Positions 18,973 to 38,078 of a stretch of 38,078 nucleotides of DNA are shown here, one piece after another; position 1 is the first letter of the stretch, and every line of letters begins with the position of its first letter. The position numbers were made by a program, and so were the translations under genes. The notes under the pieces were generated by a model. The model ran no database searches and was not told the DNA's origin. It worked only from the letters and a program-made list of their open reading frames with translations. The stretch is from positions 1 through 38,078 of the forward strand of contig JAFGWM010000069.1 of NCBI GenBank assembly GCA_016937155.1, written 5' to 3'. Source of the stretch: Deltaproteobacteria bacterium (lineage in GTDB: Bacteria > Myxococcota_A > Polyangia > HGW-17).

Positions 18973-19448
18973 AAGCACCTCCAGACTTAAGTTAACCTAC
19001 AAATAACCGCACGTGAGATTATATCATATATGACTTCAGGTAAACCCTTAACTTCAAACTTGATACACTTTATCAGCCATGGGATCGTCCAAACCAGTGT
19101 TAAGGGATCAGTTTTTTATCTAAATCCTGAAAAAATGAAAATTCTCCCTACTCAATATTTTTTTAAAACTTCTAAAAATTCAATATTACATGTTATTTCA
19201 AACTGCAAATGAATCACCGGATAAAATACTGATAAATTGAGATTGTAAATTTTTGAAGTCTTTGGTACACATGTTGTGTTGTTATTAATTGGTGCTCCGT
19301 ATTTTTGTCCTTACTTTAGGAAAGAGGCTGATTCAGCAAAAATAATTGAACGCCCTTTCCTGTGTTAGAAAAGCGGAGTATCACAAGCTTCCGATAAACC
19401 CCGGAATTTAATCTATGCTATTTTTTCGGGTCAAAGGAGTTGGTAAGT
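18973..19448. other. Divergent intergenic region before mglB
   Basis: The 476-base stretch between the leftward HEAT operon and mglB contains no convincing gene; a 60-codon frame at 19030 lacks a ribosome site and protein-like composition. Near 19390-19397 there is TCCGATAA, close to a sigma-28 -10 element, but without a proper -35. AAGGAG at 19434-19439 serves mglB. Confidence 0.5.
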
Positions 19449-19922
19449 ATGGACGTATTGTATGTGGAGGAGTATCAGGCAATACAGAATGTGGTTGAGC
19501 GGTTATACCGTGATTCCAATTCGATGGCTGTTTTGCTCATAGACAAGAACGGTCAGGAAATTGCCTCCGCCGGCCAGATCGAGGAACTTGATACAACTTC
19601 GCTTTCCTCTCTGACAGCAGGAAATGTTGCTGCCACCGGTGGAATTGCCAAGTTACTGGCGGAGAAAGAATTTACCGGGCAAACCCATGAGGGAGAGCAC
19701 ACCAATATTCATATTACAATTGTTGCTCAAAGGATAATTCTGGTCGTGCTGTTCGACCAGCATACCTCCCTTGGACTGGTAAGACTTCGAGTCAAAAAAG
19801 CATCAAAGGAGCTGGAAGGAATTCTTGACAGCATTAATTCCAAAACACAGCAACCATCACAGCCGTCAATCTTTGAAGAGATTACGGATGATGATATTGA
19901 TAATCTCTTTAACGATGACTAA
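19449..19922 (+). CDS. mglB: MglB, Roadblock-family GAP for MglA
   Basis: The 157-residue protein closely fits Myxococcus MglB in length and motifs: LIDKNGQEIASAGQ, DTTSLSSLTAGNVAATGG, SLGLVRLRVKKAS and the acidic tail EITDDDIDNLF. MglB dimers stimulate MglA GTP hydrolysis and mark the lagging cell pole. The ATG at 19449 is preferred over the TTG at 19440 because AAGGAG lies nine bases before it. mglA follows after ten bases, the usual pairing. Confidence 0.95.
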   Translation: MDVLYVEEYQAIQNVVERLYRDSNSMAVLLIDKNGQEIASAGQIEELDTTSLSSLTAGNVAATGGIAKLLAEKEFTGQTHEGEHTNIHITIVAQRIILVVLFDQHTSLGLVRLRVKKASKELEGILDSINSKTQQPSQPSIFEEITDDDIDNLFNDD

Positions 19923-19932
19923 GGGCTGAGGC

Positions 19933-20520
19933 ATGTCATTCATAAACTATTCGTCGAGGGAAATTAACTGTAAGATAGTTTACTATGGTCCCGGTCTTTG
20001 TGGTAAGACCACGAACTTGCAGTACATATACAACAAAACAAGTTCCGAAGCCAAGGGCAAGATGATTTCTCTTGCCACAGAAACGGAACGAACCCTGTTT
20101 TTCGACTTTTTACCCCTTAGTATGGGTGATATACACGGGTTTAAAACCAGATTTCATCTTTATACCGTTCCCGGTCAGGTATTTTATGATGCATCCCGAA
20201 AACTCATTTTAAAAGGTGTTGATGGGGTAGTATTTGTAGCTGATTCTCAGATTGAGAGGATGGAAGCAAACCTTGAATCTCTTGATAATCTGAGGGAAAA
20301 TCTTGAAGAGCACGGTTTTGATCTGGATAAACTCCCGTATGTTGTTCAATACAACAAACAGGATTTGCCCAACGCAGCGCCGATTGAGGAGTTGAAAAAC
20401 CTTCTTAATCCTACAAATGTCCCTGATTATCCCGCTATAGCCACCACAGGTGAAGGTGTATTTCAGACACTTAAAGCAGTAGCCAAACTGGTTCTGCTTG
20501 AACTGAAGAAGAAACGCTAG
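19933..20520 (+). CDS. mglA: MglA, Ras-like polarity GTPase
   Basis: The 195-residue protein has the same length as Myxococcus MglA. It shows the P-loop GPGLCGKTT (residues 19-27), the switch-1 segment with Arg53 and Thr54, switch-2 PGQ with Gln82, and the base-recognition motif NKQD at 141-144. Arg53 and Gln82 are the residues used for hydrolysis in this family. GTP-bound MglA sits at the leading pole and sets polarity of pili and gliding machinery. It is paired with mglB, and its stop touches the convergent signalling operon at 20521. Confidence 0.96.
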
Positions 20521-21174
20521 TCATCTGGAATTATCTGTTCGTACAATTTTAAGATTATCAAACCATGAGTCCGAAGCCCAGTTGCTGAAGGCAAAGTATT
20601 CATTTCCGCTTTTATAAAGACTGGCACTGTCCTTCAATGTAAGAACATGGACACCATCAATATACCAGGAAAGAGTCAGTGTTCCATCCTTGAGGGTGCT
20701 AGAAATCTTCCAGTGCTGATACACCCCTTTTTTCGCAAGTACTTTTCTCGTGTGCAGAAGATTTTTTGCATGCTCAAACCTTCTTGCGATAAATGTTTTT
20801 GTATTCTTCCATCCGCCAAGACAAAAAACATACCCCGTTGCTACATAAGCTCCCTTATTATGAGCGAAACTTTTCCCGTCGCCAAAAAGCTCAATTTTCA
20901 CATCCCCATCTGCCGTATTACTCTTGGCATCAAACTCAATATCCACATTTGGACCGATTCTTTTTTTCAGCCAGAGTGGATGATTATATGCCCCTGTAAT
21001 ATTCAATTCCCCCTTTATTATCAGATATCTTCCAATAGTATCAAACCATGGACGGGAAATATCAGCCCTGTTAAAATCATCTTTAAATGAAGTTATGGTA
21101 GGATTTTCATTACACCCTGATAAAAAAAACATCCCTAGAAGAATTGCATTCATAAGTTTGATAAATTTCATCAT
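20521..21174 (-). CDS. Lipoprotein with lectin-like (LamG-type) fold
   Basis: The 217-residue lipoprotein has a lipobox (LSGC) at residues 18-21. The mature part looks like a concanavalin/LamG-like beta sandwich: DDFNRADISRPWF at the start, HPLWLKKRIGPNVDIEFDAKS, VKIELFGDGKSF, HWKISSTLKDG, LSWYIDGVHVLTL and a closing WFDNLKIV strand. Such domains bind carbohydrates or form 3-keto-disaccharide-hydrolase-like folds, but no catalytic residues can be assigned. It overlaps the preceding regulator gene by four bases as the last gene of the operon. Confidence 0.7.
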   Translation of the reverse strand: MMKFIKLMNAILLGMFFLSGCNENPTITSFKDDFNRADISRPWFDTIGRYLIIKGELNITGAYNHPLWLKKRIGPNVDIEFDAKSNTADGDVKIELFGDGKSFAHNKGAYVATGYVFCLGGWKNTKTFIARRFEHAKNLLHTRKVLAKKGVYQHWKISSTLKDGTLTLSWYIDGVHVLTLKDSASLYKSGNEYFAFSNWASDSWFDNLKIVRTDNSR

Positions 21175-22259
21175 TCTCCCAGGCCCAGTTTCTTGCGCAC
21201 TATGTTCAGATTAACCTGTAGAATTTTATTGTTTTCATCCAGTTGCTTTGCTTTTTCCCAGAAGAAAAGGGCTCCTTTAAAATCACCCGTCATGTAGCAG
21301 TCCAGCCCTTCTTCAAAAAGAGAATTATAATCAGGTTTACCGTCAGGATCAGTCTTCTTTTCCGAAAGTTTTCCTAATTTTTCACTCAGTTCCTTTTCAA
21401 CCCTGTTATGCTGGATTTTTATTGCCTCTTCCAGGTGCTCTCTCTGAAATGAGACCAGATTAGAATTTACTACTTTATGAACTGTTCTTCCACGGTGTAC
21501 AACAATTGTGATTATCTGGGGAGTTCCCATTTCACTGAATTCAGTCTGAATCTGAAGAATTCCCTTTCCGGAATTAATTCCACTGAGCATTCCCATAGGT
21601 TTTTCAATTTTCAACTGAGGCTCTTCCACCAAAGATGATTCAATGCTGGAGAAATCCACATCACTAACCCTTATATGAAAAGTTCCATCATCGGTTTCTG
21701 TTAACTCTTCAAGTACATCAAAACCATCTTCTATTTCTTCAAAGTCAACTTCTCCACGAACAACATCCAGACGGTAATTCTTATTCTCAGTAAAAACCTC
21801 AATAATTCCTGTAATTGCCTGATTCTCACAAAACTGCAGAATTTTAACAAAAGGAAGTGCCGCAAGGTTCCCTCTGAATTCCCTTCTGTATCCGACTGAT
21901 TGCCTCTGCAGAATATTTCTGATTTTTGCAGCAAGTATTCCCGGGTGCAAAGGTTTTGTCAGGTAATCATCGGCACCTGTTTCCAGTCCTTTAATAACTG
22001 CCTGTGGATCATCCAGACTTGAAATGAAAATAAAAGGCAAAGTTTTTTCAGGAAAATTTGTTTTCACTGCTTTCTGAAAATCAAATCCAGTCATATCAGG
22101 CATCATCACATCTGATACAATTAATTCGACCTGGTGATTTTTCAGATATTCAAGACCTGAAAGAGGGTTGTCAGCGTATGTAACTTCAAATCCTGAAGAA
22201 TTCAACTCTTCAATGCAAAAACTCGAAAAATCAACATCATCATCTACAAATAAAATCAT
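21171..22259 (-). CDS. Response regulator: receiver, DUF4388, TPR
   Basis: The 362-residue protein begins with a receiver domain (acidic VDDD near the start, phospho-acceptor Asp50 in SDVMMPD, and the Lys of DDYLTKP). A DUF4388/PATAN-type domain (about 125-210, FRGNLAALPFVKILQFCENQ) follows, then a mixed region, and the C terminus is TPR-like (GLDCYMTGDFKGALFFWEKA). It has no DNA-binding or enzyme domain, so output is probably through protein contacts. The ATG at 22259 is chosen over the TTG at 22265. It follows the Roadblock gene by two bases and is the likely partner of the upstream histidine kinase. Confidence 0.85.
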   Translation of the reverse strand: MILFVDDDVDFSSFCIEELNSSGFEVTYADNPLSGLEYLKNHQVELIVSDVMMPDMTGFDFQKAVKTNFPEKTLPFIFISSLDDPQAVIKGLETGADDYLTKPLHPGILAAKIRNILQRQSVGYRREFRGNLAALPFVKILQFCENQAITGIIEVFTENKNYRLDVVRGEVDFEEIEDGFDVLEELTETDDGTFHIRVSDVDFSSIESSLVEEPQLKIEKPMGMLSGINSGKGILQIQTEFSEMGTPQIITIVVHRGRTVHKVVNSNLVSFQREHLEEAIKIQHNRVEKELSEKLGKLSEKKTDPDGKPDYNSLFEEGLDCYMTGDFKGALFFWEKAKQLDENNKILQVNLNIVRKKLGLGE

Positions 22260-22261
22260 CT

Positions 22262-22762
22262 TCAATTCCCCGCTTTACTGGAAAACAAAATTTGTCTGAT
22301 ACTACTGGAGACTATCTCCAGTTGCGCCCGGACATCATAATCCTGACTGCTTGTAACCAGTAAATATGCACTATTTCCTTCCTCCAGATAAAATTTATAT
22401 ATACTAATCTTGTCCAGAAGATTGAAATCCAAACTCACAAAACAGAGATCGCTGTGATTTAATAATTTCCCAATTGTAATGAGTGTTTCCCCAAATATTG
22501 ATGCTACTGCAGCATTATTTTCTGTATCAGGCATATCTGAAGATGAGGCAATAACAAGTCCTCTGCTGTCAGAAATAAGTGCCTTGTATACACCGGTATT
22601 TGAACACATATCATCAAGCAGCATCTGCAGAGCAGTTTCGCGGTTGATATCTGAAAATATATTTTCGCGTTCCTCAATGTTTTCAGGAATTAAATCCAAT
22701 TCATCCAGCAATAGTGCTGCCTTTTCAATCTCAGAAAAGTCCTTGAACTTCTTCATCTTCAT
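22262..22762 (-). CDS. Roadblock/LC7-like protein
   Basis: The 166-residue protein has the Roadblock alpha-beta pattern in its last ~120 residues: MLLDDMCSNTGVYKALISDSRGLVIASSS, a central helix (NNAAVASIFGETLITIGKLL), and the paired strands CFVSLDFNLL and SAYLLVTSS. These proteins bind small GTPases such as MglA. The start could be 22762 or 22756; AGGAG lies three or nine bases before them. It overlaps the ParA-like gene by about 30 bases, so translation is coupled. Confidence 0.7.
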   Translation of the reverse strand: MKMKKFKDFSEIEKAALLLDELDLIPENIEERENIFSDINRETALQMLLDDMCSNTGVYKALISDSRGLVIASSSDMPDTENNAAVASIFGETLITIGKLLNHSDLCFVSLDFNLLDKISIYKFYLEEGNSAYLLVTSSQDYDVRAQLEIVSSSIRQILFSSKAGN

Positions 22763-23540
22763 TTTCTCCTGACTTACTGACAATTTCCCGTTCTCTTAAC
22801 TCCAGAGCAAGTTCGAAATAATTTCTTGATGCCTTTACAGCTTTTGAACTCATTCCAGCGGGAATTGCATTTATTGAAATATCTTCATACAGGTAATCAT
22901 GTTTTATAACAGTTGAAAAAAGCCATTTTGGATTAAACTGTTCCTTTACTGACTTAAAAATCTCAAGCTCTGTTCTTGAAGCATAATCCAACATTGTCAC
23001 CAGAATTCCCTCAAGACCCGGATTTTTTTTTCGACCTTTAATATCCTTGAGAAATTCCAGAAAGACAGGTAATGATCTCACCGATGTATTTCTCATATTA
23101 AGAGGAACAAGCACACTGTCTGAAATTGAAACAAGTGCCCTCACAACAGGCCCGATACCCGCCGGGCAATCCAGCAAAGTATAATCATAACCTTCACTCA
23201 TTTTTTTTACAATTTCCCCAGCCTGGACCTGACCTCTGGTTGAATCAAACTTCCTCACCGATTGAAGAGAATATTTTCCACTCGAACAGCTGCTCAGTTT
23301 TCCATTTCTGGCTTTTACTATACATTCCTGAGGCTGGGCCTGACCGGAAATAATATCAAGAAAACCCTTCATCTGTTTATCTCTGATATTTGTCCCTAAG
23401 GACAATCCTCCCTGAGGATCACCGTCCAGCAACAGTACTGAATAGCCCATGGATGAGAGGCTGAATCCAAGATTCAGAGCGGTGGTTGACTTTCCAACAC
23501 CGCCTTTTTGACTTGCAATTGAAATAATTCTATCAGTCAT
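22731..23540 (-). CDS. ParA/MinD-type ATPase
   Basis: The 269-residue protein has the deviant Walker A KGGVGKST (residues 11-18), LLLDGDPQGGLSLG and the LLDCPAG Walker B region. This is the ParA class that positions cargo such as chromosomes or chemotaxis clusters on the nucleoid or pole. There is no ParB gene or helix-turn-helix nearby, so it is an orphan ParA. Its place between the histidine kinase and a Roadblock gene, next to mglBA, suggests a role in localising signalling proteins, which is inference. The C terminus is acidic and includes the region overlapping the next gene. Confidence 0.88.
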   Translation of the reverse strand: MTDRIISIASQKGGVGKSTTALNLGFSLSSMGYSVLLLDGDPQGGLSLGTNIRDKQMKGFLDIISGQAQPQECIVKARNGKLSSCSSGKYSLQSVRKFDSTRGQVQAGEIVKKMSEGYDYTLLDCPAGIGPVVRALVSISDSVLVPLNMRNTSVRSLPVFLEFLKDIKGRKKNPGLEGILVTMLDYASRTELEIFKSVKEQFNPKWLFSTVIKHDYLYEDISINAIPAGMSSKAVKASRNYFELALELREREIVSKSGENEDEEVQGLF

Positions 23541-23561
23541 AAAATATCTCCTGTCAGTACG

Positions 23562-26438
23562 TCATATAGTATCAGGATTATGAGATAATGGAATATTCGC
23601 CTTCAGATTCTTTAAAAAACGCATGATTGATACAGCAACTTCACTTTCAAGGAGTGGAGTAACAAGAAAGTCCTCAAAATCATTATGACCGGGTTGTTCA
23701 TTAAATACTCTGATTACATGCGAAAAATCATGTATATAAGACTCCGGAATATTTGAGTCACCTGCAGTTACCAACAGCGAGGAAGGAATCACAGGGGATT
23801 TTTCACTGAAAATAAAATATGGAAAATTCCGGAGGGAAAGCTGTCTCTCAAAAAATTTTAAGGTTAAGGAATCAAGATTATTAAGAACAGCAAAGTTTTT
23901 TATCATCAATCTGTCCGGATAGAAAACGGTAAATCTTACCCCATCAGATGTATTTTCCACATTAATGCTGCCTCCGGAAAGGTTCACTATTTCTCTCACA
24001 ATATAAAGCCCAAGACCTGAACCGGATTTTGAGGAAAATTTCTGAGCTAGAGAAAAACTCTGAAAATATTTTTTAAAGATGCTGGGCAAATCATTCACCG
24101 GAATTTGAGGCCCCTCATTTTCCACACTGATGGAAACACCATCTTCACCTGTTTTTATCAGGATAGTAATTCTGCCATTTTCGGGAGTGAACTTTATTGC
24201 ATTGGACAAAAGATTGCTTAACACCTGGGCTGTTTTTTCAATGTCCAGATAAAGCGGATATATGTAGTCTGCAGTATCAATTGAAATAATGAGTTTCTTT
24301 TTCGCTGTTTCCATCTCAAAAACTGAAAGTATATCCGTTACAATATCACGCAAAATACCTGGTTTTAATTCCAGCTCCATTTTTCCATTTTCAATTTTTT
24401 CAAGTTCAAGCATCACTTTAAGCAGATTCAGGCCTCTCTGGCTTAACTCGATAACTCTGTCAAGCTTCCTGTCAGCCTCAGAAGTGATTCCATGGGTATT
24501 CTTAATTCCCGAAGCAACAGACATAATAGCATTAAAGGGTGCCTTAAGATCATGCCTGACAATAGCCATCATATCGCTTTTAAAATTACTGAGTTTTTCA
24601 AGTTCAGAAGCCTTTTCCTTCAATTGTTCAGCCTGCAATCTGAGCAATATCTGATTCTGAATTCTTTCCGTGATATCCTTAAACTGCCCCATGTACCCGA
24701 GAAGCTTCCCCGATGCATTTTTAACACCTGATATAGTCAATTGAATATTGAGTTTTTTACCATCACTGGTCTGATCAACAACCTCTCCGGTCCAAGAGCC
24801 GCTTGCCGGATCATTAAGGTTTTTCCACATCTCTTCATAAATCTCATCAGGGGTCTCACTGGAAGAAAAAATATCAGGTCTCAAACCTTTCAGTTCATCA
24901 ATTTCATATTTAAAAAGCTTTAAAAATGAATGATTTGCATCAATAATTATTGCATCAGAGTCTGTAAAAATAACTGCTTCACCACTTGTAAGAAAATTTT
25001 TATAGAAAAATGAAAGTGTTCCAAGAGTTTCCATTGAAACAGATTCATATTTAACCGAATCGGAGTCATCAGCCGATTTGTCTTTTCCTACTGAATCAAC
25101 AAGAAAAATTCCGTCTCCTCCTGATAGTATTTTCGTTGGATTTGGAGCTGCATTTAAAATGTGCTCAATATCAGCCTCGTCAAACCGAAAAAACTGTCTG
25201 AAACCTTCAAGAGTCTGCAGGTTTTTTTTATCAGACAGACGGGATTCATGAAATACATCGATGGCAATATCAACAAGAGCAGGATCATACTGAGTTCCTC
25301 TCCCCTTTTCAATTCTCCTCACAGCTTCTTCAAAATCAAGCCCTCTCCGGTAGGATCTGTCTGTTCTCATGGCATCCCAGGAATCAGCTAAAGCAAGAAT
25401 TCTTCCTATCAGAGGAATGTTTTCACCAGAATTACCATAGGGATACCCCATTCCATTATAAAACTCATGATGGGCTGCAGCACTATAAGCAAGATGTTTC
25501 AGGTGAGTAATGGAGGACAGCATATTAATAGTGTCCTGAGCATGTTTTTTTACAATGAGCCATTCAGTTTTATCCAGAGGACCTGTTTTATTTAGCAGCG
25601 CTCTTGGGACACCCACTTTACCAACATCATGCAAAAGGCCAGCCCATAAAACATCCCATCTGTTCACAGTGTTTTCACCAAGTTTGGATGCAATCTGCCA
25701 TGCATACCATGTAACCCTGACACTATGGCCCATGGTATAGGAGTGCTTATGATCAATTATTCGAGCGAGAACCCAGAGGAGTTGAATCAGGATTTCAACA
25801 ACCGAGAAATCACTTATAGACGCAGGAACAGCATTTATTTCAAATACTTTATTTTCCAGCCATTTCTGATCAGTCAGATTTTCAACAAGAGCAGGATGAT
25901 CATTCAGGTAGTTGAGACCTGCCCTGGCGATTTCTGGAGAAACTTCCTTTCCTGAAAGACTCTGTATAAAGATTTTCAGGTTTGGGTTTGAGTAAGTTCT
26001 GATATGAATGTCAATAAGATCTGCCAGCAGGATAAGACCTGCCCCATCAGGAACTTCACTGCCTGAAAGTTTTCTGGGATGTCCGGTTCCATTATAATGT
26101 TCATGATGTTTTTCTATGAATTCAATGATATCTTTAAAAAACTTCAGTGGTTTTAAAATATCAGCCCCGGTTATTGAGTGCATAAATATTTCATGAACAA
26201 GGTTCCCCGCACGCATATAATGCAGAATATGATTTGAAAGCTCTATTCCGCCAATGTCATGCAGCAATCCGGCATGATACATTTCCGGAGCACTTAGATT
26301 TTCAATATAGCCACTTATCTCATGACATAAAAACCCCACTCTGAATGAGTGGCTCAACTTCTCCCCTTCATCAAAATCCATAGTCAGGGACAGAATCCTA
26401 ATCAAATCGTTAAAAAGTCTTGTCTTTTCAAAAAGCAT
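23562..26438 (-). CDS. Hybrid HD / HD-GYP / PAS / histidine kinase
   Basis: The 958-residue protein combines an HD-type domain with LLHDIGG and HHEHYNGTGHP (about 30-150, GYP read as GHP), a full HD-GYP domain with LLHDVGK and HHEFYNGMGYP (about 225-400), a PAS domain (about 482-594), a HisKA with RHDLKAP (His629), and an HATPase domain (about 724-842) with N and G boxes intact. A further ~115 residues of unassigned alpha-beta sequence follow. HD-GYP proteins hydrolyse c-di-GMP. The ATG at 26438 is preferred to a GTG at 26516 that would overlap the upstream gene, but neither has a strong ribosome site. Confidence 0.88.
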   Translation of the reverse strand: MLFEKTRLFNDLIRILSLTMDFDEGEKLSHSFRVGFLCHEISGYIENLSAPEMYHAGLLHDIGGIELSNHILHYMRAGNLVHEIFMHSITGADILKPLKFFKDIIEFIEKHHEHYNGTGHPRKLSGSEVPDGAGLILLADLIDIHIRTYSNPNLKIFIQSLSGKEVSPEIARAGLNYLNDHPALVENLTDQKWLENKVFEINAVPASISDFSVVEILIQLLWVLARIIDHKHSYTMGHSVRVTWYAWQIASKLGENTVNRWDVLWAGLLHDVGKVGVPRALLNKTGPLDKTEWLIVKKHAQDTINMLSSITHLKHLAYSAAAHHEFYNGMGYPYGNSGENIPLIGRILALADSWDAMRTDRSYRRGLDFEEAVRRIEKGRGTQYDPALVDIAIDVFHESRLSDKKNLQTLEGFRQFFRFDEADIEHILNAAPNPTKILSGGDGIFLVDSVGKDKSADDSDSVKYESVSMETLGTLSFFYKNFLTSGEAVIFTDSDAIIIDANHSFLKLFKYEIDELKGLRPDIFSSSETPDEIYEEMWKNLNDPASGSWTGEVVDQTSDGKKLNIQLTISGVKNASGKLLGYMGQFKDITERIQNQILLRLQAEQLKEKASELEKLSNFKSDMMAIVRHDLKAPFNAIMSVASGIKNTHGITSEADRKLDRVIELSQRGLNLLKVMLELEKIENGKMELELKPGILRDIVTDILSVFEMETAKKKLIISIDTADYIYPLYLDIEKTAQVLSNLLSNAIKFTPENGRITILIKTGEDGVSISVENEGPQIPVNDLPSIFKKYFQSFSLAQKFSSKSGSGLGLYIVREIVNLSGGSINVENTSDGVRFTVFYPDRLMIKNFAVLNNLDSLTLKFFERQLSLRNFPYFIFSEKSPVIPSSLLVTAGDSNIPESYIHDFSHVIRVFNEQPGHNDFEDFLVTPLLESEVAVSIMRFLKNLKANIPLSHNPDTI

Positions 26439-26493
26439 ATCCGACTCATTTCTGATATGGAACCTGCCAGCAAAATAGTGAAATGAATAATTT

Positions 26494-27240
26494 TTATGGA
26501 ACAGGGAAAGAATCACCCATTAGATCAAGACCACACTCAAGACCATCAATCCAGTTAATGAATTTTTCAACCGCAACAGGGGTTTTAATCATTGCCCCAT
26601 GCTGGGGAGCTATAATTTCAATATCTAGTTTTCTTGCAGTATTTGCCCACATTTTCATGGCTTTCCGGCAGGGAATGTATCTCCTGTGGAAAGGATCCAT
26701 GTATTGAACATGTGCATCAAAATCATCAGTTTCCTGCCACGGAGCACCTAAGCTGGCACCAAGATCCCCAGTGTAAAGAATTTTCAATTCTGGATCATAA
26801 ACCTGAAAATTACCGGAACTGTGAAGAAAGTGTGCAGGAATAAATTTAAGATCAATTCCGCCAAGATTGACAAGCATTCCCTCATCAGGAATTGGTGTTA
26901 TCCTGTCAATAACATACTGATCAATTCCAAAATGAGGAATAAACCTCATCCAGAGTTCACTGAGAAATGCTCTGGCATCAGTCATCATCAACCAACCGTT
27001 GGCAGCAGCTATGATATCCGGATCCTGATGACTGAAGAAGAGATATTTAATAGAGGTTGATTTAACAACAGATGAAAGCTGGCTGAATAGACTTGTATAG
27101 ACTTTATGCCCCCCTGGATCCAGAATCATGGTTTCATCGTTTTTTATTATTAGGTGCTGATTGGCCTGCACCATATGGCCGGAACCCAGATCGTGAAACA
27201 TCACTGCTTTACTGTTTTGTGCCTGTGATATAGTAATCAT
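26494..27240 (-). CDS. ODP-type di-iron metallo-beta-lactamase-fold protein
   Basis: The 248-residue protein has the flavodiiron-type beta-lactamase fold. Its metal motif reads His71-Gln-Asp73-Pro-Asp75 instead of HxExD, with further ligand candidates in AHFLHSSGN (His137 or His140), Asp159 in YTGDLG and His214 in PQHG. HQDPD variants occur in oxygen-binding ODP proteins, which serve as di-iron oxygen sensors in some chemotaxis systems. There is no flavodoxin domain, so NO/O2 reductase activity is not expected. The ATG at 27240 is preferred over the TTG at 27285. The kinase gene follows after 55 bases, so an oxygen input to that kinase is a reasonable inference. Confidence 0.75.
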   Translation of the reverse strand: MITISQAQNSKAVMFHDLGSGHMVQANQHLIIKNDETMILDPGGHKVYTSLFSQLSSVVKSTSIKYLFFSHQDPDIIAAANGWLMMTDARAFLSELWMRFIPHFGIDQYVIDRITPIPDEGMLVNLGGIDLKFIPAHFLHSSGNFQVYDPELKILYTGDLGASLGAPWQETDDFDAHVQYMDPFHRRYIPCRKAMKMWANTARKLDIEIIAPQHGAMIKTPVAVEKFINWIDGLECGLDLMGDSFPVP

Positions 27241-27321
27241 ATCTTTTTTCCCGTATGACCATAAAATGGTCGCATTTTTAATCAATTAATACCTGAACCC
27301 CCTCAGGTAAAAAACAACCAA

Positions 27322-27690
27322 TCAACCTAAAATTTTTTTTACTTCCTGACTGGCTCGAGACAGATCAAGAAAAACCAATCCCAGCTTTGCTGTTTTCCGG
27401 GCAAGGGCAATTAATACAGCGTGTTCACCGGCATGCATTATAATAACATAGCCATTATCACCTCTGACAAATAACTGTTCAAGGTTACCCCTCTTCAGTT
27501 CGAGCGCCGTTCTGGTGCCCATGGATAGCATCGCTGCACTCATCGCAGCTATCTGTGCTTCTTCAATGTTGGGGGCAAGTGAGCTGGCAATCATTAACCC
27601 ATCCTCTGAAACAATTGCGCATGCTTCTATATCACCGCTACCACTTTGAAGATGCTCCAGAGTATCATTAAGAGCCTGTGTTCTTGACAT
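27322..27690 (-). CDS. Roadblock/LC7 protein heading the signalling operon
   Basis: The 122-residue protein is a single Roadblock domain: LEHLQSGSGDIEACAIVSEDGLMIASSL, a central AAMSAAMLSMGTRTA helix, then LFVRGDNGYVIIMHAG and ALIALARKTAKLGLV strands. This is the short MglB-like class that regulates MglA-type GTPases. AAGGAG precedes the ATG at 27690. It is the first gene of the leftward run and lies behind an unusual set of inverted and direct repeats (27734-27861). Confidence 0.85.
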   Translation of the reverse strand: MSRTQALNDTLEHLQSGSGDIEACAIVSEDGLMIASSLAPNIEEAQIAAMSAAMLSMGTRTALELKRGNLEQLFVRGDNGYVIIMHAGEHAVLIALARKTAKLGLVFLDLSRASQEVKKILG

Positions 27691-27733
27691 TTTTTTCTCC
27701 TTAAAATTACCATGCACAGGTAATTTTCAGTTC

Positions 27734-32891: not shown

Positions 32892-34349
32892 TTATTTCAG
32901 TTCTTCTTCTTTTAATGGAGGGCCCTGTTCAGTCCACCCAAACGGAAGTACAGAACCAACATTCTCACTATCCAGTGAAATATCAGTCAGTTTTTCCTTC
33001 TCCGAAATATTATAGTAATTTTGTCCTCCCGGTGGAGGTGATAAAAACACCATACGTCCAGAGTCATGTTGTGTTTTGTAATTAATAGAAGAATACCATC
33101 TGGTATTTCCGGTATTCTTTATCAGTACCCTGATAGGATATTTTCCCATTTTTATACTGCCAATGCTCAGTTTAAGAAATTTGCGACCATTAAGCATGTC
33201 GGAGATATCTGATTCAGGTAATGATGAAATCACAGCGATTTTTTTTACCAGATTTTCATTTTTTAATAGGTCCGGGGTTTTCCAGGGTTTGTATTTCTCA
33301 AAAATTTCAGAAGTTGCAAGGGCACAACTTATGTTCAGATCAAGCTCATTGCTTCTGTTGCTAAACCGTTTCAGGAATTCTTTCTTAAATCCTTTCATAC
33401 ATGAAGATGCCCTTTTAAAATCTTTTTCAAGAAGATACGACCTTGCAGCACTAATTATCACCCCGGATTCACACTGATTTAAACTCTTTTGCTCTGGAAA
33501 AAAAACTTTGGCCATCAGAACCACGGCATCCACACAACCTAAATTGTTTTGATTCACAACTAGGGTATTTTCATTCAGAATTCTGGTGGGGCCTACTTTC
33601 ACTCTGATAATATTCAATTTTTTCATATAATTCGAGACAAAAGACAGTAAGGTGTTTTTTTCAGATACCTTCTGCAAAAAAGCCATGCTTTTATCGGAAT
33701 TATCCCACGTTTTCACTTCGAGATTTCCAAGGGTAAAACTGGTCTGTTTATCCGAGGTAACTGCAAAACTGTCAATAACAGCATTTCTCAGTTTAAGCTT
33801 ACCTGCCGTTATAAAATAGGAATCCACCTGAGGATAGGTATCTACAATAATCGAAGATTTCAGTATTATATCCTCACTATTACTGAAAATATTCCCCCCT
33901 TCGAAAATAACAGTACCCTTTTCAACCGAACGTACTCCTTTAATTGCGAACTTTAGAAGAAAGCTATCCGAAGTTGAGGTGGATGCAGTCAGACCCTTTC
34001 CCGTAACAGATGAACTTTGATTTTTACCTGATTTCCCGGTCTTGGACAATGTGTTGAATACAAAATTTCTTCCTCTTATTAAATCAAATGTCCCCTGGTT
34101 ATTACATTGAGCATTAAACCAGAAACTACCTGCAAGAACATTATTTTTCCAACTTAGAACAATTTTTTTTGGAGTAATTAAAGGGCGACACTTTATAGAT
34201 TTCTTTTCCTGCAGTGGGAACTGAATATATGGGGAATACCTGTTTATTTCAGCAGATTCAGAAGAACTACAGCCAATTACAGATATATAATTAATGATAA
34301 AAAATAGGGTTAAAACAGTACTATTTACCTGAAATAATTTTCTGTGCAT
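32892..34349 (-). CDS. Large lipoprotein, unknown
   Basis: The 485-residue protein has a signal peptide ending in VIGC, so it is likely a lipoprotein. A long beta-rich N-terminal half (FIRST strands LAGSFWFNAQCNNQGTF, later ILKSSIIVDTYPQVDSYF) is followed from about residue 270 by a more helical segment with cysteines (NNLGCVDAVVLMAKVFFP, ALATSEIF) and a final beta segment (MGKYPIRVLIKNTGNTRWYSS). No family is recognised. Its start overlaps the FHA-TPR gene end by 29 bases, so the two are coupled, and an envelope role for the FHA protein partner is plausible. Confidence 0.6.
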   Translation of the reverse strand: MHRKLFQVNSTVLTLFFIINYISVIGCSSSESAEINRYSPYIQFPLQEKKSIKCRPLITPKKIVLSWKNNVLAGSFWFNAQCNNQGTFDLIRGRNFVFNTLSKTGKSGKNQSSSVTGKGLTASTSTSDSFLLKFAIKGVRSVEKGTVIFEGGNIFSNSEDIILKSSIIVDTYPQVDSYFITAGKLKLRNAVIDSFAVTSDKQTSFTLGNLEVKTWDNSDKSMAFLQKVSEKNTLLSFVSNYMKKLNIIRVKVGPTRILNENTLVVNQNNLGCVDAVVLMAKVFFPEQKSLNQCESGVIISAARSYLLEKDFKRASSCMKGFKKEFLKRFSNRSNELDLNISCALATSEIFEKYKPWKTPDLLKNENLVKKIAVISSLPESDISDMLNGRKFLKLSIGSIKMGKYPIRVLIKNTGNTRWYSSINYKTQHDSGRMVFLSPPPGGQNYYNISEKEKLTDISLDSENVGSVLPFGWTEQGPPLKEEELK

Positions 34350-36516
34350 TTTTATAAGTGGGACTTGTTGACAGGGTCATCTTGACAATTCTAGTTGCAA
34401 GTTTCGCAGCCTCAGCGGTACTACCACTCTGGGCAAGACCCTGAGCTTCGGAAAGAAACTCTGTGGCCCTCTGCTCAAGTTTCTTGATACCCTGATCTCT
34501 CAACTCAGTTGTGTCATCCGGATCCATATCCAAACCCTTTTTGAAAAGCTCAAAGGCTTCTTCATATCTTAGAAGATCAAGACTTTTTTTGCCTTCCTTG
34601 TAATAAACACCTGCAAGACGATTTGAAATATTTCGGCGGTAACTGCTTTTTAGCTTCCCGGGGATAATCAGTCGATCCATTGTTAGAACTGAAGTCCATT
34701 CTTTTTTTGCCCCTTCAGGATCATCCTGCTGAAGTTTTGTTTCACCAGCTTCATAACTCTGTACAATACTCTGAAGTTGTCCCACAAGTTCCGTAATCAT
34801 AGTGGAATACTTGCCGTATTTTCTTCGACCCCTGTATGATTTTGTAAGTTCCTTCAGCCTTAAAATCGCATCCTTGGGATTACCTGTAAAATAAACTATT
34901 ATGATTTCATCAATTCCCTTGGGATATTTATCTGATATTTCTTTTTTAGCCTGCTTTGCCCACCTGTCTGCAAGAGGAATACGGGCTTCCTTAAATCTCT
35001 TTGCAGTGCATGCAACAAATGATTTTTTATACTTAGATAAGAGCTCGACCCTTTTTAGATCCAGTCTAATCTTCTCTTCCATTCGAATATCATCAAGTTG
35101 ACTGTCAAGATCAAAATACTTGCAAAGACTGTCGTGTGCTTTGTCATAATATCTGGCCTTGTACTGTGCAAGACCATCGTCCCTGTAATGCCGAGCCAGT
35201 TCTTTTTTAAGATCCATTATGATAGGAGCCATTTCAGTTCTGTAATACTGGCTTTTGGGATCGATCTGATGAAACAGTCGAAGAGCCTTTACTCTATCTT
35301 CGTGATTCATCCTATTTTTAGTATTAAGTGCATTCTGAAATATCTTGTAATTTCCTCTCTCAAAATAAGCATATGATAATGACTCCTTGATAATTTTATC
35401 ATCAGGCATCAAAGTGAGAGCATTTTTCAACTTGCTGATGGCTTTATCCCATTTGTCAACGCGCATGAGGTCCTTGGCCTCAGCCTTTAAACGAGCAACC
35501 TGAACTTTAAGACTTTCCTGAAAATCATCCTTCTTCAGTTCTATCTTTGTTTTTTTAGGGCGATTCTTTTTCGCAAGTTTAAGAACCATCACTCCTGCAA
35601 GAAGAAAAAAGAGACCGGTGATAACAAGAATTGCAACTTTAGACTTCACAAGGGATTTGATATCAAATGATATTTTCTTCCCAGGTTCGGAGCCAAAAGA
35701 ACTTGAAGTAAGCAGTAAGGGGACTTCTCCTATTCTGATTCTGTCTCCAATTGATGCAATATCCCTTTTACAGTCAACACCATTTATGAACGTTCCATTC
35801 ATGGATCTCAGATCCTGAACAAGCAGTGTACCGCCTTCTTCAAGTTTAAGCCTTGCATGAACACGGCTTACGCTGGGATCATCAATGACAATTTCGACAT
35901 CCGGAGCTCGGCCGATGTCAAAAAATCCATCATAGGCCAAAACAAATTCACGGCCGTCGAGATAACCTTCACGTGCCACCAGTTTAAGGTGTTTATTCAC
36001 AGTAAGTTGAATAGCATCAGAACCAATCTGAATTGCATCTCCCCCGAATGACGGGTCCGGCTGATTAACAACTACTTCTCCACTTCCTTTAGAATATCCA
36101 TCACCCTGGGCATAAGCTTCCTGCGGTGGTGGATAGGACTGATCATATGCAACATCCGGTGGAGGTGGTGGAGGTGGTGGATCATCAAAAGCAGGAACTG
36201 GGACGGGAGATGTTTGAACCGATTCATCAAAATAAATATAGAGGTTATATGAACCAACGAAAAGTTGATTTTCGTTTGATACATATGCACTCTGAGCAAG
36301 GGGATATCCATCCATGACAACAAAACCGCTGCCATCATCTTCAATGACAGGATAACCCTCATTGAGATAAAACCATGCAGCCTGAGGAGGAACCGAGGCA
36401 TCGGGAATAACCAGTGTATTCTCAGGTCCGCTTCCGGTATAAACCACCTGACCATCAATCAGAGGGGCTCGGCCAATCTCATTTCCTGCTGAATCATATA
36501 TTATTAAATACCACAA
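34321..36516 (-). CDS. FHA-domain transmembrane TPR protein, TTG start
   Basis: The 731-residue protein has a degenerate N-terminal FHA-like domain (about 1-100), a Pro-rich linker with an eight-proline run (113-120), a canonical FHA domain (about 176-272) with GR at 202-203, SRVH at 217-220 and NGT at 240-242, a single transmembrane helix (about 292-315), and a long TPR-like C-terminal part. FHA domains bind phosphothreonine peptides. The TTG at 36516 is the only start that keeps the first strand, and AGGTGA precedes it. It follows the CpaF gene by 43 bases, suggesting a role in that secretion or pilus machine. Confidence 0.85.
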   Translation of the reverse strand: MWYLIIYDSAGNEIGRAPLIDGQVVYTGSGPENTLVIPDASVPPQAAWFYLNEGYPVIEDDGSGFVVMDGYPLAQSAYVSNENQLFVGSYNLYIYFDESVQTSPVPVPAFDDPPPPPPPPDVAYDQSYPPPQEAYAQGDGYSKGSGEVVVNQPDPSFGGDAIQIGSDAIQLTVNKHLKLVAREGYLDGREFVLAYDGFFDIGRAPDVEIVIDDPSVSRVHARLKLEEGGTLLVQDLRSMNGTFINGVDCKRDIASIGDRIRIGEVPLLLTSSSFGSEPGKKISFDIKSLVKSKVAILVITGLFFLLAGVMVLKLAKKNRPKKTKIELKKDDFQESLKVQVARLKAEAKDLMRVDKWDKAISKLKNALTLMPDDKIIKESLSYAYFERGNYKIFQNALNTKNRMNHEDRVKALRLFHQIDPKSQYYRTEMAPIIMDLKKELARHYRDDGLAQYKARYYDKAHDSLCKYFDLDSQLDDIRMEEKIRLDLKRVELLSKYKKSFVACTAKRFKEARIPLADRWAKQAKKEISDKYPKGIDEIIIVYFTGNPKDAILRLKELTKSYRGRRKYGKYSTMITELVGQLQSIVQSYEAGETKLQQDDPEGAKKEWTSVLTMDRLIIPGKLKSSYRRNISNRLAGVYYKEGKKSLDLLRYEEAFELFKKGLDMDPDDTTELRDQGIKKLEQRATEFLSEAQGLAQSGSTAEAAKLATRIVKMTLSTSPTYKNAQKIISGK

Positions 36517-36559: not shown

Positions 36560-38078
36560 CTATTGCTCCCTGAAAATACTCATATCCACAGGAATACCTT
36601 TTCGTCTCAGATCGTCATAGAATTTTGGCATAAATCCAGTTGCAACAAACTTACCAAGAACCTTGTTTTCAGCATCATAACCATCCTGACGGAAATTAAA
36701 GATATCCTGCATTGTTATGATGTCACCTTCCATGCCTGTGACTTCTGAAATATAAGTAATTTTTCTGGAGCCATCACTGAAACGTGTCTGCTGAACTATA
36801 ATATCCACAGCACTTGCAATCTGCTCACGAATTGCCCTTACAGGAAGTTCCATACCACTCATCAGAACCATCGTTTCAAGTCTTGAGAGCACATCTCTTG
36901 GAGCATTAGCGTGAATGGTGGTGAGAGAACCATCATGGCCTGTATTCATAGCCTGCAACATATCGAGAGCTTCACCACCGCGGCACTCACCTACAACAAT
37001 ACGATCCGGACGCATACGCAGAGTATTTTTCATCAACTCCCGAATCGTTATGGCACCCTTACCCTCAATATTAGGTGGACGTGACTCCAACTGAATCCAG
37101 TGCATTTTCTGAATCTGGAGCTCTGCAGCATCCTCAATCGTGATGATACGCTCACCTTCAGGAATAAAATTGGAAATAATATTCAGTGTGGTTGTCTTAC
37201 CAGAACCGGTACCACCGGCAATGATAACGTTTTTACGTGCGATAACACACATCTTAATAAAATCAGCCATACCTCTTGTGAGTGTATTGAATTTTATCAA
37301 CTCCTCAACACCAAGAACATCTCTTTTGAACTTACGGATAGTTATACATGGTCCCTTAAGTGCAAGTGGAGGAATAATGGCATTAACACGACTGCCATCT
37401 TTCAGACGAGCATCAACAAGTGGTGAACTTTCATCGATTCGTCTACCGATAGGAGCGACTATTCTCTCAATGACCCCCATAACTGCCTGATCGGAACTGA
37501 AAATTTTCTCGCTCACAACCAGTTTACCGGATCTTTCAAGATAAATCTGAGTTGAATGATTTACCATAATTTCAGAAATACTATCATCCTCAAGAAAATC
37601 CTGTAGAGGTCCCAGACCCAGAGCTTCATTGAGAACATCCTTAATCAGTTCATCCTGATCCACAAAACTGGGAAGCTCACCTGCTGCTGCCATTGCATCA
37701 ACTATATCACATATGACTGCATCAGTTTTATCCCAGAGTTCCTCTTCAGGAATTTCATCAAGATTCATTCTCCTTAGATCCATTTTTTCAATCAGTTGAT
37801 CATGAATCTTTTTCTGGAGAACTGAAATTTTCTCCAGTTTTGGATCCAGTGAAGGAGCCTTGGAAATTCTGGCATTGGCCTTGGCTCCAGGTGACTGTGC
37901 TTTCTGATGCTGATGCTGCGGAGACTGACCTGGCCTTCCCTGTGCCGGTGGTGGCGCGTTGTATGCCTGCTGCTGTGGAGGCTGTGCTGCTGCCGGTGGT
38001 GGCGCACTGTATGCCTGCTGCTGTGGAGGCTGTGCTGCTGCCGGTGGTGGCGCACTGTATGCCTGCTGCTGTGGTGCC
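36560..38078 (-). CDS. cpaF: CpaF/TadA-type secretion ATPase, 5' partial
   Basis: At least 505 residues are present, and the frame stays open through the window edge, so the N terminus is missing. The core (from Met at 37783) has Walker A GGTGSGKTT, the Walker B region RIVVGECRGGEALDMLQAMN, and IHANAPRDVLSRLE, all typical of CpaF/TadA hexameric ATPases that drive Tad pili or type-IV-pilus-like secretion. A Met at 37783 is not the true start: the in-frame upstream codons read the CpaF-type helix SVLQKKIHDQLIEKM and a Pro/Gln/Ala-rich repeat region. That low-complexity tail is unusual for the family. Confidence 0.93.
   Translation of the reverse strand, partial: APQQQAYSAPPPAAAQPPQQQAYSAPPPAAAQPPQQQAYNAPPPAQGRPGQSPQHQHQKAQSPGAKANARISKAPSLDPKLEKISVLQKKIHDQLIEKMDLRRMNLDEIPEEELWDKTDAVICDIVDAMAAAGELPSFVDQDELIKDVLNEALGLGPLQDFLEDDSISEIMVNHSTQIYLERSGKLVVSEKIFSSDQAVMGVIERIVAPIGRRIDESSPLVDARLKDGSRVNAIIPPLALKGPCITIRKFKRDVLGVEELIKFNTLTRGMADFIKMCVIARKNVIIAGGTGSGKTTTLNIISNFIPEGERIITIEDAAELQIQKMHWIQLESRPPNIEGKGAITIRELMKNTLRMRPDRIVVGECRGGEALDMLQAMNTGHDGSLTTIHANAPRDVLSRLETMVLMSGMELPVRAIREQIASAVDIIVQQTRFSDGSRKITYISEVTGMEGDIITMQDIFNFRQDGYDAENKVLGKFVATGFMPKFYDDLRRKGIPVDMSIFREQ
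37945..38078. repeat. 48-bp in-frame repeat in the cpaF N-terminal region
   Basis: Units start at 37945, 37993 and 38041 (the last truncated by the edge), each 48 bases. They are in frame and encode a 16-residue unit, PQQQAYSAPPPAAAQP. The outer two agree almost completely and the 37945 copy differs by a few bases. Such repeats change length easily by slippage or recombination. Confidence 0.85.

Follow-up and report, generated by a model that had tools for sequence, protein, structure and literature searches.

The question raised by contig JAFGWM010000069.1 is what kind of signaling system is encoded by a leftward run of genes that combines an oxygen-binding di-iron protein (ODP) with a sensor kinase, a ParA-type ATPase, and two roadblock proteins. 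The window (the whole stretch analyzed, 38,078 nucleotides of this contig, forward strand; coordinates are window positions unless a locus is named) holds seven leftward open reading frames (ORFs) at positions 20521 to 27717, longest starts included, whose ends overlap by 4 to 53 bp or are separated by gaps of less than 40 bp. An initial annotation had described this leftward, often overlapping run and named its domains; ORF ends and Pfam profile scores, judged against family cutoffs, bear out that description, with the second roadblock protein recognized through AlphaFold2 and Foldseek. Six of the genes (21171 to 27690, minus strand) form a conserved cassette encoding a roadblock protein (Robl1), the ODP, an HD/HD-GYP/PAS histidine kinase, ParA, a second roadblock protein (Robl2), and a receiver-DUF4388(PATAN)-TPR regulator. 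We give about an even chance to the proposal that this cassette works in the cytoplasm as an O2/Fe(II)-sensing phosphorelay, in which Robl1-ODP would be the sensor, the kinase and receiver (REC)-DUF4388 protein the relay, and ParA-Robl2 a positioning device.

The conserved unit was delimited by its recurrence. Homologues of the ODP were sought in relatives of the source genome, in its phylum (assigned to Myxococcota by the name that NCBI gives the genus relative), and in the phyla to which the following belong: Desulfuromonas, Desulforhopalus, and a metagenome-assembled genome (MAG) titled "Acidobacteria." At least 845 genomes were searched in total; the searches centered on Desulfuromonas and Desulforhopalus covered largely the same genomes, so the number of distinct genomes is lower. 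Neighboring genes were identified by family-profile searches; simple gene calling gives antisense ORFs in the high-GC relatives. A Robl1 gene adjoins 38 of the 46 ODPs that are at least 45% identical to the window ODP, almost always immediately upstream and on the same strand, and none of the 14 ODPs below that identity. Because of this difference, the adjacency goes beyond chance. Two of the eight close loci lacking Robl1 sit at contig ends (L040 and L100), and the 46 close ODPs form one group in the ODP tree (Shimodaira-Hasegawa-like approximate likelihood ratio test [SH-aLRT] support, 94). From its adjacency, Robl1 appears to be a dedicated partner of ODP. Complete six-part sets were found at 17 loci, and the cassette recurs in at least two phyla, Myxococcota and Thermodesulfobacteriota. 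A third, Acidobacteriota, is probable: the loci concerned (L125 and L126) belong to the same phylum as a MAG titled Acidobacteria at NCBI. The initial annotation had suspected an unrecognized operon joining oxygen-type sensing, a phosphorelay, ParA, and two roadblock proteins, and had named recurrence in other genomes as its check; the gene set does recur and is apparently undescribed.

The closest solved relatives of Robl1 are Asgard roadblock proteins, with MglB matching weakly, and neither Robl1 nor Robl2 matched the NCBIfam MglB model. The best solved relatives of the ODP are two structures named "oxygen-binding diiron protein" (6qrq and 6qnm; E values, 5e-62 and 7e-55). Its candidate di-iron ligands, H86, D88, D90, H155, D174, and H229, do not vary among the homologues that span them (one sequence stops short of H229); from the flavodiiron and ODP literature, we take these three histidines and three aspartates to bind the iron. 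Across seven cassettes, identity to the window proteins is 53 to 72% for Robl1 and 51 to 67% for ODP, while it is 29 to 38% for ParA and 22 to 35% for Robl2. Near-equal values within Robl1/ODP, and lower but similar ones within ParA/Robl2, are as expected of two coevolving pairs. On these identities, ParA-Robl2 is a second pair, evolving faster than Robl1-ODP.

The cassette exists in two architectures whose kinases have diverged separately. Type A has the order Robl1-ODP-kinase-[REC-DUF4388]-ParA-Robl2-REC-DUF4388, the first REC-DUF4388 gene being missing in the window and its genus relative. All six functions are present in this form in the window and at L037, L039, L041, L042, L043, L044, L048, L119, and L143. 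Within type A, the Robl1-ODP pair is divergent from the other cassette genes at L042 and L043, separate genes encode the HD part and the kinase part at L037, and the kinase lies upstream at L039. In the compact type B, a short PAS histidine kinase lies upstream of Robl1-ODP-REC-DUF4388-ParA-Robl2; this set is complete at L049, L050, L051, L085, L098, L125, and L126, and L127 has it with no kinase match. The type B Robl2 has diverged, yet its profile still aligns with that of the type A Robl2 (hhalign, 92.6%; E value, 4.6e-7), and the position of the window regulator is matched by a REC-DUF4388 gene in relatives. A third group comprises the kinase, Robl1, ODP, a weak REC-DUF4388 match, and often a roadblock protein, with no ParA. 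Separately, L087 (G129:C114) carries two tandem Robl1-ODP pairs with a kinase-like gene ahead of each.

Both ends of a two-component phosphotransfer are retained. The window kinase has the HisKA phospho-acceptor motif HDLKAP at position 655, the HD[LM]KxP motif is intact in all kinases checked, and the receiver of the regulator has the motif SDVMMPD. The DUF4388 and TPR_2 matches of the regulator both fall under their Pfam cutoffs, the former just below. Neither an MCPsignal nor a CheA domain was found by Pfam among the cassette proteins. A methyl-accepting chemotaxis protein gene lies 17 kb from the cassette inside the window. Cyclic di-GMP (c-di-GMP) turnover, also part of the initial annotation, fits the window kinase, whose second HD domain retains HDVGK..HHE..GYP, but not the cassette at large. 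Type B lacks the HD-GYP region, as do L039 and L040 (the loci of Desulfuromonas and Desulforhopalus), and the kinases of L045, L048, L119, and L143 no longer have either the lysine of HDxGK or the HD motif itself; the combination of HDxGK and HHExxxGxGYP is not kept across the cassette's kinases. Because the region is missing or degraded at several loci, c-di-GMP turnover is, judged by these motifs, an optional part of the system. The kinase C terminus (23562 to 23915, minus strand) comprises about 115 residues, with weakly similar ends in several relatives. A pseudo-receiver is conceivable there from those similar ends, but the model was poor (predicted local distance difference test [pLDDT], 58.5) and gave no fold match.

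For the output, cyanobacterial PATAN regulators are believed to connect signals with type IV pili (PMC7690835), and the genome encodes five clear PilB/PilT-type ATPases (PF00437). By analogy, the type IV pilus is a possible target of the DUF4388/PATAN regulator, and the motility link raised in the initial annotation is possible through this effector. One of the five ATPase genes lies inside the window (36560 to 37783, minus strand; 205 bits), beside an FHA-TPR gene (34321 to 36516).

ParA has the deviant Walker A motif KGGVGKST, and its identity to the genome's other ParA-like proteins reaches no more than 25 to 32%. Its C-terminal tail is -GLF, -LL, or similar, the -GLF of the window being common to relatives. 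The parA and robl2 genes overlap at most loci, by 19 to 52 bp where starts are clear; in the window, the likely robl2 start (22762, an ATG behind AGGAG) gives an overlap of 32 bp. The deviant Walker A lysine and the adjoining dedicated partner gene are both features of ParA positioning systems. The Pfam match of Robl2 to Robl_LC7 is partial (21.3 bits against a cutoff of 23), and its AlphaFold2 model (pLDDT, 72) retrieved MglB and other roadblock structures in Foldseek (best E value, 3.8e-6); according to this model, Robl2 carries the roadblock fold. Its N-terminal helix motif is SEIEKAALLLDEL in the window protein and takes the general form S-[ED]-h-x-x-A-x-x-h-x-x-x-L; a linker, in many cases rich in proline, and the roadblock domain come next. 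A regular expression for the motif failed at L044, L049, L050, and L051, with L049 and L051 carrying the variant SSDR.ALRALARRL. Partners of ParA/MinD proteins are described as an interaction domain with a short segment added at the N terminus (PMC7993993), and the layout of Robl2 (helix motif, linker, roadblock fold) resembles that of these activators. At L082 (9831 to 10544), a Robl2 homologue is fused to an N-terminal helix-turn-helix (HTH) domain, HTH_17, beside Robl1-ODP and with no ParA. This arrangement is a hint that ParA may connect Robl2 to DNA. The HTH-Robl2 gene of L082 is followed by one for a 980-residue TPR protein, and the remaining roadblock-like gene of genome G000 (C50; L144:4267-7604) lies directly upstream of one for a 982-residue TPR-like protein.

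We propose that these parts form three units. The sensor unit would consist of the di-iron ODP and its roadblock adaptor: ODP would bind ferrous iron and oxygen and change state, and Robl1, as a scaffold, would pass that state to the soluble histidine kinase. Within the relay unit, the kinase would phosphorylate the receiver-PATAN-TPR regulator, and the PATAN/TPR part of the latter would target a protein, perhaps type IV pili or some other machine at the pole. In the positioning unit, the N-terminal helix of Robl2 would bind ParA and its roadblock domain the Robl1/ODP/kinase complex, which the ParA ATPase cycle would place on the nucleoid or at the pole. The direction of signaling is what we infer from the gene content, as are the physical contacts and the output, and these last two weigh against the proposal together with several other points. 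Oxygen as the ligand of ODP in this lineage is carried over from relatives, one member of the family being an oxygen sensor for chemotaxis (PMC7666581), and the PATAN-pilus link comes from cyanobacteria. Of the 46 close ODP loci, 26 (some of them truncated at the end of a contig) have no ParA, and positioning is therefore not essential to sensing. The Robl2 N terminus is not uniformly basic, with no lysine there in L042 and L043, unlike known ParA activators, and the ParA of L044 is degenerate.

Roadblock proteins are otherwise known as small-GTPase regulators; here, they occur with an oxygen sensor and a ParA-type ATPase instead of a GTPase. That such GTPase-free roadblock proteins spatially organize oxygen sensing, with Robl1 joining the di-iron sensor to the kinase and Robl2 joining the complex to ParA, is possible, if doubtful. 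If true, oxygen sensing and the response to it would be localized to particular sites within the cell.

Other readings start from the neighboring genes. The mglA and lipoprotein genes end base to base (20520/20521), as initially described. Homologues of the lipoprotein were found only in the genus relative and a sister genus. In G003, of that sister genus and the same family, the lipoprotein homologue and two electron transfer flavoprotein genes face mglAB on contig C130, while the cassette is on C83. On this synteny, the lipoprotein and mglBA were rejected as parts of the system; the unit of seven genes first proposed is thereby reduced to the six conserved ones. In G001, of the same genus, similar noncoding stretches at facing contig ends (L041:1-701 and L161:3606-3921) suggest an assembly break at a repeat located between the lipoprotein gene and mglA. 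The cassette might nevertheless be an input to MglA, with Robl1, Robl2, or both as MglB- or MglC-like regulators, so that the oxygen level would set the MglA state and polarity. Roadblock proteins are the classic MglA regulators, the best fold matches of Robl2 are MglB structures, MglA is encoded in all 10 genomes checked, and PATAN proteins co-occur with the MglA-pathway protein SgmX in Myxococcus (PMC11580455). However, MglA is common in these groups, so its co-occurrence says little. The mglA gene adjoins the cassette in this genome, and possibly in its genus given the G001 contig break, but was in none of the other cassette neighborhoods examined; the mglA/mglB orthologues lie elsewhere in the genomes checked. 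No cassette examined contains a GTPase gene, and Robl1 is closer to archaeal roadblock proteins than to MglB. We consider this input improbable, and the link to MglA drawn in the initial annotation from adjacency is not sustained.

An ordinary two-component operon governing oxygen-responsive gene expression or c-di-GMP, with ParA as a FleN-like negative regulator instead of a positioner and the roadblock proteins as passive scaffolds, would agree with the intact HD-GYP motifs of the window kinase, the nine clear GGDEF proteins of the genome, the distant relationship of the cassette ParA to FleN/MinD-type ATPases, and the HTH-Robl2 fusion at L082. We judge it somewhat unlikely, as Pfam detected a DNA-binding output domain in none of the six window proteins and HD-GYP is dispensed with in the compact architecture and at L039/L040 and degenerate in others. 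It is also conceivable that the ODP is a protective enzyme consuming oxygen or nitric oxide (NO) and that the operon is a regulated stress-response unit with no sensor system, since ODPs share the metallo-beta-lactamase fold with flavodiiron oxygen/NO reductases. The cassette, however, has neither a flavodoxin domain nor a reductase gene, the ODP is tightly associated with Robl1, the kinase, REC-DUF4388, and ParA in several lineages, and the studied relative is the chemotaxis oxygen sensor (PMC7666581); this explanation is very unlikely.

The cassette genes and their immediate neighbors are listed below; the likely start of Robl1 differs from that of the longest ORF. An Rfam search found no RNA element, and promoter and terminator scans gave counts close to chance. 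Upstream of the cassette lie two tandem metallo-beta-lactamase-fold genes (PF12706; 29040 to 30890, plus strand). The pair also adjoins the cassette at L041 in the genus relative (69 to 77% identical), where a caspase-like Peptidase_C14 protein is encoded just past it (L041:11355-13646, G001), and is not found at the other loci.

Table. Features of the cassette and its neighbors in the window
Feature	Coordinates	Strand	Basis
Robl1, single-domain Roadblock/LC7 protein	27322..27690	-	Pfam Robl_LC7, 62.8 bits
ODP, stand-alone oxygen-binding di-iron protein	26494..27285 (likely start ~27240)	-	PF19583, 235.2 bits (cutoff, 27.2)
Sensor kinase: HD, HD-GYP, PAS, HisKA, HATPase	23562..26516 (likely start ~26438)	-	Pfam HD_5 (two stretches), PAS_9, HisKA, HATPase_c
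ParA-type ATPase, no parB adjoining	22731..23540	-	AAA_31, 102.9 bits
Robl2: N-terminal helix motif, linker, predicted roadblock fold	22262..22762	-	AlphaFold2 model, Foldseek, alignments
Response regulator: receiver, DUF4388 (PATAN), TPR	21171..22265	-	Response_reg, 84.6 bits; DUF4388, 23.5; TPR_2, 23
Lipoprotein gene, 4-bp overlap with regulator; outside conserved cassette	20521..21174	-	Synteny in relatives
mglB and mglA, convergent neighbor; outside cassette	19440..20520	+	MglB/Arf family matches

The cassette provides a defined partner set for ODP proteins outside chemotaxis and bears on how anaerobes and microaerophiles convert oxygen exposure into a localized response; the members found in relatives of Desulfuromonas and Desulforhopalus could open the system to bench tests. 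It consists of known parts in an apparently undescribed combination. A literature search, which did not extend to the operon list of Muok et al. (2019, PNAS 116:14955), retrieved no paper joining a roadblock protein with ODP or DUF4388; according to a summary of that study in PMC7319448, ODPs had already been noted in operons with various signal transduction genes. ODP sensors of the Treponema denticola TDE2498 type belong to the same family (PF19583), have the same candidate ligands, and are likewise stand-alone domains coupled to signaling. Their partners are a chemoreceptor and CheA, whereas those of the cassette are Robl1, a soluble PAS/HD kinase, REC-DUF4388, ParA, and Robl2. The actinobacterial G-protein systems known as conservons (CvnABCD) also combine a histidine kinase and a roadblock protein in an operon, some with a separate sensing protein, but they need the Ras-like GTPase CvnD and CvnC (PMC13343842), neither of which is among the six cassette proteins. 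The cassette instead pairs a receiver with a HisKA kinase of orthodox type, and ODP, ParA, and the second roadblock protein are additional. With the MglA-MglB-MglC polarity module, it shares the roadblock fold, as predicted for Robl2 by its match to MglB, but has no GTPase, and Robl1 does not match the MglB model. Receiver and PATAN/DUF4388 domains are held in common with the cyanobacterial pilus regulators PixG, PixE, and LsiR (PMC7690835); in the cassette, a TPR part follows, the input comes from a roadblock-ODP-kinase unit, not from a photoreceptor, and the pilus is a candidate target. Finally, the ParA/MinD cargo-positioning systems (PpfA-TlpT, ParC, McdA-McdB, and PomZ-PomX) likewise have an adjoining partner gene, whose product combines an interaction domain with a linker and a segment at the N terminus; the cassette differs in having a roadblock protein as this partner in place of ParB, McdB, PomX, or TlpT, and in that the likely cargo is a two-component signaling complex.

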